Below, one piece after another: positions 32,244-58,651 of a DNA stretch of 64,000 bases (its first letter is position 1; the number at the start of each line of letters is the position of its first letter). The position numbers and the translations under genes were made by a program. This stretch comes from Petroclostridium xylanilyticum (lineage in GTDB: Bacteria; Bacillota; Clostridia; SK-Y3). The DNA is taken from assembly GCF_002252565.1 (NCBI RefSeq), contig NZ_NPML01000013.1, positions 1 to 64,000 of the forward strand, given 5' to 3'. The notes under the pieces are model-generated. The model was not told the origin of the DNA. It worked only from the letters and a program-made list of their open reading frames with translations, and searched no databases.

Positions 32244-32328
32244 AGTTCACGGTTCACAGTTCTCAGTTCACAGAAATTAGCCAAGAAAATACTGTGAACC
32301 GTGAACCGTGAACTGTGAACCGTGAACT
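32244..32328. repeat. Heptad repeat arrays in inverted orientation (hairpin)
   Basis: The left array reads AGTTCAC, GGTTCAC, AGTTCTC, AGTTCAC with exact 7-base spacing (32244-32273). The right array reads GTGAACC, GTGAACC, GTGAACT, GTGAACC, GTGAACT (32294-32328). The arrays are near reverse complements separated by about 20 bases, so the RNA can form a long stem. Confidence 0.85.
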
Positions 32329-32387
32329 AAAATAAGTACTTAGTAATACTTATATAGAATTCTATTTCAGTGGGTGTGAAGTATTTT

Positions 32388-41056: not shown

Positions 41057-41086
41057 AGTTCGGAGTTTGGAGTCCGGAGTTCGGAG
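41057..41086. repeat. Heptad repeat array (AGTTCGG unit)
   Basis: AGTTCGG, AGTTTGG, AGTCCGG, AGTTCGG, AG in exact 7-base register, between the PduT and DeoR genes. Confidence 0.85.
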
Positions 41087-44364: not shown

Positions 44365-44389
44365 AACTCCGAGCTCCAAGCTCCGAGCT
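44365..44389. repeat. Heptad repeat array (AGCTCCG unit)
   Basis: AACTCCG, AGCTCCA, AGCTCCG, AGCT in exact 7-base register, just after the stop of the BMC-H gene at 44399. Confidence 0.85.
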
Positions 44390-45585: not shown

Positions 45586-45630
45586 AGCTCGGAGTTAATA
45601 ACTCTCCACTCCTCACTGTTTACTCCCCAC
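45586..45630. repeat. Heptad repeat array overlapping a gene end (CTCCCCA unit)
   Basis: CTCTCCA, CTCCTCA, CTGTTTA, CTCCCCA in register at 45602-45629, preceded by AGCTCGG, AGTTA at 45586. It overlaps the last codons and TGA stop (45613-45615) of the BMC-H gene that ends there. Confidence 0.8.
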
Positions 45631-45957
45631 TTTTCTTAACTTGTCTTTTCCTACATTTGAAATGGTTACGAGCTTTTGTGTTTCATCATCCGGTCGTGCG
45701 ATTACATGATGTGCTATTACACCGGATGCCCTTTTTGCAGCTTCTACTCCTGCAGCTACAGCGGCCTGGACTGCTGAAACACTTCCTTCAAGCTTTACAA
45801 GCATCACCAATGGGACCTCTGCTGCGTCTCCGGCTGCCGGCTTTGTGGAGTCAAGCGCTACAATTCTGACATCTGCTGCTTTCGCAGCTGCATCCGCTGC
45901 TTTAATTGCTGTAACATAGCCGAATACTTCAATAAAACCTATTGCTTGATTCCCCAT
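45613..45957 (-). CDS. BMC-H shell protein with short insertion and C-terminal tail
   Basis: 114 residues. BMC domain MGNQAIGFIEVFGYVTAIKA, with an A/P/G-rich insertion STKPAAGDAAEVPLVMLVKL between strands, then GSVSAVQAAVAAGVEAAKRA and HHVIARPDDETQKLV. The tail ends VGKDKLRKVGSKQ; its last codons and the stop lie in a heptad repeat array, so the original C-terminus may have been longer or different. It is the first shell gene after the dehydrogenase, only 3 bases apart. The inserted segment near the pore would change gating or binding. Confidence 0.9.
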   Translation of the reverse strand: MGNQAIGFIEVFGYVTAIKAADAAAKAADVRIVALDSTKPAAGDAAEVPLVMLVKLEGSVSAVQAAVAAGVEAAKRASGVIAHHVIARPDDETQKLVTISNVGKDKLRKVGSKQ

Positions 45958-47339: not shown

Positions 47340-48782
47340 TCAAATAATCGACAACGAATCAACCAGTACGCATCTTCTTTCTCTTGTAAATGTCTTGGTT
47401 GAGGTGAGGCCTTCACCCGTTGGTCCGGCAATGGTAAACGTAGCATATCCTTCGCTTCCTACACCAATTCCGGCATAGGATGGTGCATTCTTTACAAAGA
47501 TTGTAGTTCCGATTGCTTTTGCAAACTTTGTAAGATTGTCTATATTTTTTGAGTGCATATGTGCTGTATGTCTGTTGCCATGTTCTGCTTTTACTGCTAA
47601 ACGAATAGCTTCATCCACATTATTTACTCTCACGATGGGCAGAATAGGCATCATCAACTCTTCCACCACAAAAGGATGATCTGCACCGGTTTCACAAATG
47701 ATGCAGCGAATATCATCTTCAACATAGATACCCAACTCCTTCAAAATCAACTTTGCATCTTTTCCTACCCATTTTTTATTAATCATTAATTCTCTCTTAG
47801 GCCTATCGGTACATCCCTTACCCTGAAGTTCTTCTTTTTCAGTTAGCACTATTTTTACCAGTTGTTCAATCTCTTCTCCTTTAATAAGGTATGCTCCGTT
47901 TTGCTGCATATAGTAAACCAGTTCATCAGCAATATTTTCTAATGCAAATACCTCTTTTTCTGCAATGCAGGGAAGGTTGTTGTCAAAGGTTGCTCCATCT
48001 ATAATATCTTTAGCTGCTTTCTTAATATCAGCGGTATCATCCACAATTACCGGAGGATTTCCCGCTCCGGCCCCAATGGCTTTCTTACCCGAGGAGAGCA
48101 GGGCACGTACAACCCCCGGACCCCCTGTAGCAACAAGAAGTTTCACAGCTGGGTGTTTCATCATAATATCCGCCGATTGCAGTGTTGGCTTATATACGGA
48201 ACAGACCAGGTTCTTCGGTCCCCCTGCATACATTACTGCTTTATTTACCAAATCTACTGCAAAATTTGATACATTGACTGCATTAGGGTGAGGATTGAAT
48301 ACCACTGCATTTCCCGCTGCAATCATTCCAATACTGTTACAGATTACTGTTTCACTTGGATTGGTACTGGGTGTAATGGCTCCAATCACACCATAGGGTG
48401 CTCTTTCTACCAGGGTTAGCCCCCTGTCCCCCGACCATGCTGTAGTGTTTAAGTCTTCAGTTCCCGGGGTCTTGTTTGCTACCAGTTGGTGTTTTAATAT
48501 CTTATGATCCACCCTTCCCATCCCGGTTTCTTCCACACCCATTTTTGCCATTATTTCTGCATTCTCTAAAGTCAACTTTCTGATTGCAGATATCATTTGC
48601 TCTCTTTGCTCAATAGAATACTCCCTTAAGCTGTTATAAGCTTTTTCTGCTGCTTCAAGCGCATCTTCCATCGATTCAAACACACCTAATAGCTTTTTAT
48701 TTTCTGTTTCTCTTATATTACCAGCTGCTATATTCTTAAGCACCTTTTCTACTATCAGGTTGATTTGTTTTTCATCTATCAT
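47340..48782 (-). CDS. pduP: CoA-acylating propionaldehyde dehydrogenase
   Basis: 480 residues. Oxidises propionaldehyde to propionyl-CoA with NAD+ in the BMC lumen. The N-terminal helix MIDEKQINLIVEKVLKNIAA plus linker is a typical encapsulation peptide. MGVEETGMGRVDHKILKHQL, PYGVIGAITPSTNPSETVIC and GAGNPPVIVDDTADIKKAA are PduP/EutE hallmarks. The catalytic Cys is in FDNNLPCIAEKEV near residue 270. GGGGG precedes the ATG. It overlaps pduO by four bases. Confidence 0.95.
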   Translation of the reverse strand: MIDEKQINLIVEKVLKNIAAGNIRETENKKLLGVFESMEDALEAAEKAYNSLREYSIEQREQMISAIRKLTLENAEIMAKMGVEETGMGRVDHKILKHQLVANKTPGTEDLNTTAWSGDRGLTLVERAPYGVIGAITPSTNPSETVICNSIGMIAAGNAVVFNPHPNAVNVSNFAVDLVNKAVMYAGGPKNLVCSVYKPTLQSADIMMKHPAVKLLVATGGPGVVRALLSSGKKAIGAGAGNPPVIVDDTADIKKAAKDIIDGATFDNNLPCIAEKEVFALENIADELVYYMQQNGAYLIKGEEIEQLVKIVLTEKEELQGKGCTDRPKRELMINKKWVGKDAKLILKELGIYVEDDIRCIICETGADHPFVVEELMMPILPIVRVNNVDEAIRLAVKAEHGNRHTAHMHSKNIDNLTKFAKAIGTTIFVKNAPSYAGIGVGSEGYATFTIAGPTGEGLTSTKTFTRERRCVLVDSLSII

Positions 48783-49798
48783 TGGTTTCGACCCCCTTTT
48801 TCAAATATTTGAGCACCAAATTCAGCAAGCTCTATATCCTGTTCAGCTGTTCCGCCACTTACACCTAACCCACCTACAACTTTATCTGCCTGCTTTAGCG
48901 GAACACCACCACCAAAAATGACAATCCTGCCGCTGTTGGTAAACTGCAATCCATACAAAGGACTTCCCGGCTGTGACAAGTTTCCAACTGTTTCAGTAGA
49001 CATTTTTAATGCTGCCGATGTATAGGCTTTATTAACTGCAATATCAATACTGGCAATAAAGGCGTCATCCATCCTGTGTAGCAGTATTAAATTACCACCT
49101 TCATCGGCAATAGCAATTACAACTTTCATGCCTTTCTCTATCGCCTTTTTCTCAATTTCCAACGATAATTGCTTCGCAGCTTGGAGTGTTAACTTACCAA
49201 AATCACCTTCATTCTTTGCAGCGAAGAGTCCATCATGTTTTAACTCCTCACTCCCCACCGTCCACTCCCCTCTTTCCTTAACAACTTTTTTTACAATCTC
49301 TTTAACTTTCTCCTTAAGTTCTATATATCGCGCCATCACATATATTAAGTCGGAAAGCCTGTTTAAATAGATCAGTCCAAATTCGTTTATTTCTCTTTTT
49401 TCCTTTAACCCGACAGCAATTCTTTCAGCCCGGCGTACAATCGTTCTTGCCATATCCAATGCTGCTGTGGAATGGAACGCTCCTGGAAGTATAAAACCTT
49501 TAAAGCTTCCAACTTGCTGCTGGTATTTATCTATGAGTTTTTCAATAAATTCAATCTTCTCCTGGGTGATAACATATTTCCCACCAACGACCTGTGCATT
49601 AAAGGCTATAATATCTCTTTGAACATATATCAAATCTTTCAGTACATTTTCATCGTCCAAGAATGACCGGGCCAACCCCAGGGCAGAAGTAAATTCATCC
49701 ATTGTACCGATCAAATGGATTGACAGGTCATTTTTTGATACTCTCTTTTTGCTTAAAGTGTCCGTCATTCCTTCATCACCGGTTTTGGTATATATCAT
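48779..49798 (-). CDS. pduO: ATP:cob(I)alamin adenosyltransferase PduO, two-domain
   Basis: 339 residues. Makes adenosylcobalamin for the diol dehydratase. The N-terminal domain (1 to about 175) starts MIYTKTGDEGMTDTLSKKRV and contains FILPGAFHSTAALDMARTIV and RRAERI. The C-terminal domain (about 200-339, HbpS/GlcG-like) has KLTLQAAKQLSLEIEKKAIE and VVGGLGVSGGTAEQDIELAE. The linker around residues 175-190 (RGEWTVGSEELKHDG) is encoded by an in-frame heptad repeat array. The ATG at 49798 sits right after GAGG. A GGAG from the upstream heptad array is better spaced and probably supplies the ribosome site. Confidence 0.94.
   Translation of the reverse strand: MIYTKTGDEGMTDTLSKKRVSKNDLSIHLIGTMDEFTSALGLARSFLDDENVLKDLIYVQRDIIAFNAQVVGGKYVITQEKIEFIEKLIDKYQQQVGSFKGFILPGAFHSTAALDMARTIVRRAERIAVGLKEKREINEFGLIYLNRLSDLIYVMARYIELKEKVKEIVKKVVKERGEWTVGSEELKHDGLFAAKNEGDFGKLTLQAAKQLSLEIEKKAIEKGMKVVIAIADEGGNLILLHRMDDAFIASIDIAVNKAYTSAALKMSTETVGNLSQPGSPLYGLQFTNSGRIVIFGGGVPLKQADKVVGGLGVSGGTAEQDIELAEFGAQIFEKGGRNQ
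49243..49277. repeat. Heptad repeat array inside the pduO coding region
   Basis: ACTCCTC, ACTCCCC, ACCGTCC, ACTCCCC, TCTTTCC in 7-base register. Because 7 is not a multiple of 3, all three frames of the unit are read, giving the linker GEWTVGSEEL between the two PduO domains. The frame is kept. Confidence 0.85.
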
Positions 49799-49804
49799 CC
49801 TCTA

Positions 49805-49839
49805 ATTCTCCATTCTCAATTGTCAATTCTCAATTCCAT
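49805..49839. repeat. Heptad repeat array (ATTCTCA unit)
   Basis: ATTCTCC, ATTCTCA, ATTGTCA, ATTCTCA, ATTCCAT in exact register, filling most of the 44 bases between pduG and pduO. On the minus strand it supplies GGAG, a likely ribosome site for pduO. Confidence 0.85.
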
Positions 49840-51690: not shown

Positions 51691-52206
51691 CTATCTTAGT
51701 ATCTTTCTTGTTTCATATACTTCCGCTGCTTCCCTGATTAGTTTCGCCGTGATTTTGGCCTGATATTTGGTTTCCAGCTCCTGTGCAGCATCCAGTAACT
51801 GCTGTTTTGTGGCTCTTCTGGGTCTTAAGAGTTCATATATTTCCAGTACTTTTTCATCTGGAATTCTTGTTAATTCAGCAGCCCTTCTTAAATTATGGGC
51901 AAACTGCTTTTTACCATTTGCCTCTGCTACCTGTGCCTGCAGCTCCAATACTTCAGCACTGATTCGAATATCCTCCGGCTTCACTTCTTCATCTACTACT
52001 TTTTCCAGCGTTATATCATTCAACGTTTTCCCCGTATAACTCTTAATCAATTCCGGCCTTTTCTGTGCCAGCGGATAATCACTTAGCGTTAGCTTAGAAG
52101 TGTTATTTGCAGAGTTCAGAGATTTTACTCCCCACTCCTCACTCCCCACTCCTAACTGTGTTTCCGCTATCCTCTTTACCAGCTGCTCTATTCTATTCTC
52201 TTCCAT
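51691..52206 (-). CDS. pduE: Propanediol dehydratase small subunit
   Basis: 171 residues. The gamma subunit of the B12 diol dehydratase. The N-terminal helix MEENRIEQLVKRIAETQL is encapsulation-peptide-like. The body starts DYPLAQKRPELIKSYTGKTL and continues with DITLEKVVDEEVKPEDIRIS and ANGKKQFAHNLRRAAELTRI. Residues about 17-28 (LGVGSEEWGVKS) are encoded by an in-frame heptad array between helix and body. The ATG immediately follows the pduD stop codon, so the genes are coupled. Confidence 0.95.
   Translation of the reverse strand: MEENRIEQLVKRIAETQLGVGSEEWGVKSLNSANNTSKLTLSDYPLAQKRPELIKSYTGKTLNDITLEKVVDEEVKPEDIRISAEVLELQAQVAEANGKKQFAHNLRRAAELTRIPDEKVLEIYELLRPRRATKQQLLDAAQELETKYQAKITAKLIREAAEVYETRKILR
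52127..52158. repeat. Heptad repeat array inside the pduE coding region
   Basis: ACTCCCC, ACTCCTC, ACTCCCC, ACTCCTA, ACTG in exact register. It encodes VGSEEWGVK in the linker between the N-terminal helix and the catalytic-body part. Unit sequence nearly identical to that in pduO. Confidence 0.85.
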
Positions 52207-58594: not shown

Positions 58595-58626
58595 ACTGTT
58601 TCCCCTTTCATTATGTTTCAACTCGA

Positions 58627-58651
58627 AGCTTGGAGTTCGGAGCTCGGAGTA
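58627..58651. repeat. Heptad repeat array (AGCTCGG unit)
   Basis: AGCTTGG, AGTTCGG, AGCTCGG, AGTA in exact register, between the ASRT gene and rhaA. Confidence 0.85.

Follow-up and report, generated by a model that had tools for sequence, protein, structure and literature searches.

The inter-domain linker of PduO in Petroclostridium xylanilyticum contains a peptide, GEWTVGSEEL, that is coded by an array of 7-bp repeats, and this array is likely one copy of a non-autonomous heptad repeat, dispersed through the genome, that arrived in the linker by copying and was kept in an open frame. The array belongs to a repeat family of this genome, occupies an open frame and lies between two intact domains. 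The PduO orthologues compared are free of the peptide, and the linker is longer here than in most of them. The pduO locus was analyzed in a 64,000-nt stretch of the genome (the window), where its features are as follows.

48779..49798, minus strand: pduO, intact gene for a two-domain cob(I)alamin adenosyltransferase of 339 aa (ORF; Pfam PF01923, 2.9e-46, and PF03928, 9.2e-38)
49322..49795, minus strand: PduO adenosyltransferase domain (Cob_adeno_trans), residues 2-159 (Pfam; PDB 1wy1, 1rty, 2nt8)
49193..49321, minus strand: PduO inter-domain linker, residues 160-202 (alignment of 29 orthologues)
49243..49270, minus strand: pduO array, four heptads, GGGGAGT GGACGGT GGGGAGT GAGGAGT (sequence, frame count, family match)
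48812..49192, minus strand: PduO HbpS-like C-terminal domain, residues 203-329 (Pfam; PDB 2a2l, 5cx7)

The adenosyltransferase and HbpS-like domains were both complete by Pfam and PDB matches, with solved structures aligning to residues 2-168 and 202-332. The forward letters of 49243-49270 are ACTCCTC ACTCCCC ACCGTCC ACTCCCC, and the array is in frame within an otherwise intact gene, whose minus-strand ORF (49798..48779) contains ...KERGEWTVGSEELKHDG.... Translation of this ORF bears out the first-pass annotation, made from the sequence alone, in its reading that the array codes GEWTVGSEEL in PduO; on the minus strand, the peptide forms residues 177-186 of the 339-aa protein. That annotation had drawn the array as 49243-49277. 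Four units extend to 49270, and the remaining letters, 49271-49277 (TCTTTCC), are at best a decayed fifth unit. It had also placed the array exactly between the domains. The array does lie between residues 2-159 and 203-329, but somewhat inside the linker of ~43-44 residues and not at a domain edge.

A second gene in the same operon, 2.9 kb from the pduO array, also carries an in-gene array, and further heptads occur in the window.

51691..52206, minus strand: pduE-like gene for a diol dehydratase small subunit of 171 aa (Pfam PF02287, 1.7e-57, residues 40-171)
52127..52157, minus strand: second in-gene array, ACTCCCC-type, coding the PduE peptide LGVGSEEWGV (repeat scan, similarity search)
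45601..45628, minus strand: ACTCCCC-type array across the stop codon of a 114-aa ORF (45613-45957), giving the tail KVGSKQ followed by the stop
49804..49836, no strand assigned: AATTCTC heptad array immediately upstream of pduO, in the intergenic gap (TRF)

Beyond pduO, the ACTCCCC-type arrays of the window are thus one inside pduE (52127-52157) and one over a gene end (45601-45628). The same class of DNA had been said to occur in nearby non-coding gaps. The nearest gaps instead hold AATTCTC (49804-49836), CTCCGAG (44367) and AGTTCGG (41057) heptads, although wholly intergenic ACTCCCC arrays are plentiful elsewhere in the genome. Further heptad types in the window, at 32244-32329, 41057-41086, 44367-44389, 49804-49836 and 58622-58650, comprise an AGTTCAC inverted pair, AGTTCGG, CTCCGAG and AATTCTC. 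The formula A-N-T-NNNN describes most heptad types of the P. xylanilyticum genome.

The pattern ACTCCCCACTNYCCACTCCCC was searched over the 3.86-Mb genome of the organism, giving 56 matches at ≤1 mismatch and 146 at ≤3, whereas the reversed pattern, used as a control, had 0 matches there; the array is thus not explained by chance. Arrays were then counted in a 1.26-Mb sample, chosen to cover most ACTCCCC sites plus contig C13 as a whole, with genes called by a simple codon model rather than a published annotator (75% coding). Period-7 arrays were the commonest short-period class, with 105 in this sample, which was partly picked for ACTCCCC sites; there were 34 arrays of period 6 and 1-7 for periods 4, 5 and 8-11. 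Contig C13, taken whole (420 kb), contained 35 period-7 arrays, and loci of other Bacillota, 233 kb in total, had none. The 1.26 Mb held 113 ACTCCCC-type arrays, nearly all outside genes. The closest copy of the pduO array is intergenic and on another contig (C22:45635), with 27/28 identical bases and an equal order of units, and the ACCGTCC unit was present only in these two arrays among the matches listed. The pduO array shares the traits of the family, namely several tandem copies of a 7-bp unit and many copies in the genome, mainly outside genes. It had been proposed that the DNA pattern, and not the peptide, is what recurs; the 113 arrays and the intergenic best match agree with this.

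For the pduO and pduE arrays, similarity search found nothing shared past the heptads and an AAA at their edge. Of the 113 arrays, 41 have AAAA directly behind them (background, 1.4%); this edge is exact at the pduE array and comes after one extra T at the pduO array. Unit number is not constant among the copies of one dispersed repeat element, where an identical GGTTTT flank is followed by 3, 4 or 6 units; this fits slippage.

Many ACTCCCC-type arrays lie in longer dispersed elements, for which Rfam returned no known RNA. One type has the leader TAATATGAAAATAGT and the tail AAAACCGAAACCAC..., and another is a palindrome that carries two arrays separated by 46 bp. At 27/27 bases, the pduE array is identical to sequence in the arms of this palindrome. 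Because the pduO and pduE arrays match different copies (C22:45635 and the palindrome arms, respectively), they look like separate arrivals. We also considered pduO and pduE as sites of a whole decayed element, and dropped this when the similarity search matched heptads alone.

Several further observations concern these elements. Near-identical palindromes occur at C13:109885-109958, C29:201674-201747, C19:572104-572177 and C13:313687-313760; they have two outward heptad arrays around TTTTTTGAACTTGATCGGTAATTT and a MITE-like look. Elements of the form TAATATGAAAATAGT-heptads-AAAACCGAAACCACAGAAAAAGTCCGGTTTAGC... lie at C7:157942, C19:383579, C13:152304, C29:170779 and other sites, and some copies of the TAATATGAAAATAGT element hold a nested palindrome, GGGGACGGTTC...GAACCGTCCCC. 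Heptad arrays are also found in a stretch repeated four times (C19:285871-286195, C19:507612-508097, C4:167686-168010 and C11:84606-84930), to which rRNA operons are possibly adjacent.

Coding DNA makes up 75% of the sample, yet a strict scan placed 90 of the 105 period-7 arrays in intergenic DNA, 13 over gene ends and 2 inside genes. One internal array was that of pduE, and the other, of ACTCCGA type, lay at C13:170081; the pduO array is too diverged for the strict period scan and hence is not counted among the 105. Those of pduO and pduE are the only certain internal arrays among the 113 of ACTCCCC type. Position depended strongly on orientation across the genome. Of the 69 arrays with GGGGAGT on the coding strand, 46 lay ≤50 bp behind a stop codon (median, 8 bp), versus 4 of 43 arrays ≤50 bp from a stop codon in the opposite orientation (median, 208 bp). 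Placement directly 3' of stop codons is a rule that characterizes the family as a whole and does not describe the pduO copy. The element itself often supplies the stop codon, as its leader provides a stop in each frame (TAA, TGA and TAG). The G strand was the coding strand in all eight in-gene ACTCCCC-type arrays (8/8), most of which form C-terminal tails, such as ...SGEWGVGSEE followed by a stop. Examples of one-orientation arrays behind or over stop codons are window positions 45601-45628, C19:554380, C22:36364 and C13:397445. Two in-gene matches, C7:449234 and L348, were set aside as they probably reflect wrong start codons.

According to the code table, a pure GGGGAGT array is translated into GEWGVGS, repeated without stops and identical in each of the three frames, since 7 = 2 × 3 + 1; three units make seven codons. 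Stops come from variant units (AGTGAGG, ATAGT) and from flanks, and 45 of the 113 arrays had no open coding-strand frame when short flanks were included. For each of the pduO and pduE arrays with flanks, exactly one of three coding-strand frames is open, and the gene uses that frame. The usual junction, ...GGAGTAAAAC, reads ...GGAGTTAAAAC in pduO, where the single extra T before AAAA avoids the TAA stop and gives Leu-Lys in its place.

The first-pass annotation had predicted a gap of about 10-15 residues in PduO orthologues. The alignment covered 29 two-domain PduO orthologues, drawn from genomes of Bacillota and from plasmid records. Linkers were 22-35 residues long in 25 of the 29, with a median of 29 versus 44 in this PduO, and were 27 residues long in both the best-scoring orthologue (L220) and the sole orthologue from the same family (L010). 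The resulting excess over most orthologues, 15-17 residues, is near the predicted value. The GEWTVGSEEL peptide occurred in 0/29 orthologues; the observation named beforehand as refuting an insertion, the same linker peptide in genomes free of heptads, was thus not made among these 29. Equally long linkers without heptads occur in four orthologues (L217, 44 residues; L241, 43; L229, 47; L242, 51), and the natural range among orthologues is 22-51 residues. The highest identity of any orthologue found was ≤48%, so that the polarity of the change, an insertion, is inferred rather than displayed by an empty site.

In PduE, the array separates the N-terminal helix from the core domain, and its peptide was absent from the PduE orthologues compared. 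The PduE linker is not lengthened (29 residues versus about 27 in orthologues). A claim of insertion from length was therefore dropped for PduE, and the array may have replaced sequence rather than adding it.

Under the reading that we favor, the pduO linker would have received a copy of a GGGGAGT array (coding strand) from another place in the genome, and the copy would have been retained because it landed in the sole open frame, in a linker without folded structure to break. The change in pduO would be an insertion rather than a replacement and near neutral, and the family would spread by the copying of short arrays, with slippage then shifting unit number. The suggestion of a repeat that spread into a permissive linker is supported by family membership, extra linker length and the peptide-free orthologues. 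Counted against it are that no transposase or target duplication is tied to the pduO array and that PduE has the repeat without excess length. The array could instead have arisen in place, if replication slippage amplified a heptad that was present by chance in a linker of already great length. Heptad number does vary between copies of one element, and heptads are usually proposed to arise through slippage (PMC4692102), but the pduO units are those of the genome family, shared variants included, and pduE also has the flanking AAAA. Growth in place would not reproduce the 27/28 (pduO) and 27/27 (pduE) matches to other copies, and we regard it as unlikely.

It is quite unlikely that the array is a remnant of the longer mobile element TAATATGAAAATAG...CTATTTTCAT, which bears heptads elsewhere, domesticated as a linker with loss of its stops. 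The pduO flanks (AAGGAAAGAGGGG / TTAAAAC...CGCTGC) roughly resemble the leader and tail of the element; this likeness was judged by eye, however, and only heptads were matched by similarity search. Selection on the peptide itself, for example as a spacer or a microcompartment-related tag in the pdu operon, with the repeat DNA incidental, would account for the presence of two of very few in-gene arrays in one operon, where the chance of a second internal array within 3 kb, given one, is about 0.5% by our estimate from the counts. It would also account for the alike peptides, GEWTVGSEEL and LGVGSEEWGV. Any GGGGAGT array yields such a peptide, however, and it appears as a C-terminal tail on the unrelated TsaE, acetolactate synthase small subunit and CBS regulator, and inside unrelated cyanobacterial proteins, while being absent from the PduO and PduE orthologues compared. 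Such selection is thus very unlikely to explain the array, and copying of a dispersed repeat into the linker remains the preferred explanation.

The heptad repeats of heterocystous cyanobacteria are known as STRRs. The matches listed for the strict pattern in the genome collection came mainly from cyanobacteria, Nostoc among them, and also from Petroclostridium sp. X23. Distribution was patchy in Bacillota, with the pattern in 4 of 398 genomes. The reversed control pattern matched repeatedly in five Bacillota genomes (G074, G180, G253, G376 and G442), suggesting other heptad types there. The strand rule also held in a genome of the same family (G003; median, 5 bp) and at 62 cyanobacterial loci (median, 4 bp). 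In-gene arrays of cyanobacteria code GSGEWGVGSGE or TPHSPLP and were found in pyruvate:ferredoxin oxidoreductase (POR), nitrite reductase, an ABC transporter, ValRS, CysRS and MutL. In one Nostoc species, the linker of the ABC transporter (L360-L364) contains four GGGGAGT units; two other Nostoc orthologues, 96% identical overall, have AATTGAT-type heptads there, and in more distant orthologues the heptads are decayed or missing (the set spans 84-96% identity). These close Nostoc relatives show that heptads come, go and change type within a protein linker, a parallel that favors the reading proposed for pduO. The clostridial and cyanobacterial repeats are alike in unit and placement, but their distribution is patchy and short units allow convergence. 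One can imagine a single unrecognized copying process, through transfer or a shared host enzyme, that spreads one kind of heptad in Petroclostridium relatives and heterocystous cyanobacteria, places it by strand at gene ends, switches its type and occasionally gives a protein, PduO or PduE for example, a stereotyped GEWGVGS peptide; we give this a small but real chance of being correct.

The pduO array is a tidy example of an established event, short repetitive DNA becoming protein, and its mechanism is not new. Few bacterial repeats are known to have become protein sequence, and this array provides a clostridial one. The heptad suits coding, as three units equal seven codons and are stop-free in every frame, with stops supplied by the usual flanks. 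Strand-specific placement is common to clostridia, cyanobacteria and, from published work, Xanthomonas, which makes the spreading process testable across close strains.

In-frame insertion of repeats into proteins is established for the Rickettsia palindromic elements (Ogata et al. 2000; reviewed in PMC10969869). As there, repeat DNA is found here in frame within unrelated proteins at tolerated places; the Rickettsia elements, however, are palindromes of ~100-150 bp, whereas the pduO array is a 28-bp direct repeat with no inverted partner at the site. In-frame protein additions are likewise established for the Coxiella QMITEs, including, as here, C-terminal tails ended by a stop beside the element (PMC5896051). 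QMITEs are MITEs with terminal inverted repeats, whereas no such repeats were found at the pduO array, whose flanks had no match beyond the heptads. TAACTGA heptads of Beggiatoaceae, cyanobacteria and Bacteroidetes are similar in that one heptad is patchy across distant phyla, and differ in their unit and in lying mostly upstream of start codons (PMC4679880). At one site in the cyanobacterial tRNA-Leu intron, both class 1 and class 2 heptad types occur (PMC3488679).

The closest parallels are the Nostoc GGGGA(C/T)T and Xanthomonas GGGAATC heptads, which have a 3' sense-strand placement, are 68% intergenic in Nostoc and form G-quadruplexes in vitro, with no known function (PMC4692102). Like these, the repeats described here have mostly 3-5 copies and are dispersed and mostly extragenic, with some in genes, and their G-rich strand is the coding strand, <50 bp after stop codons (PMC4692102). 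Unlike STRRs, the GGGGAGT unit here resides in a clostridial family (relative, Petroclostridium sp. X23), and its in-gene arrays always have the G strand as the coding strand, where under-representation has been reported for the published heptads (PMC4692102).
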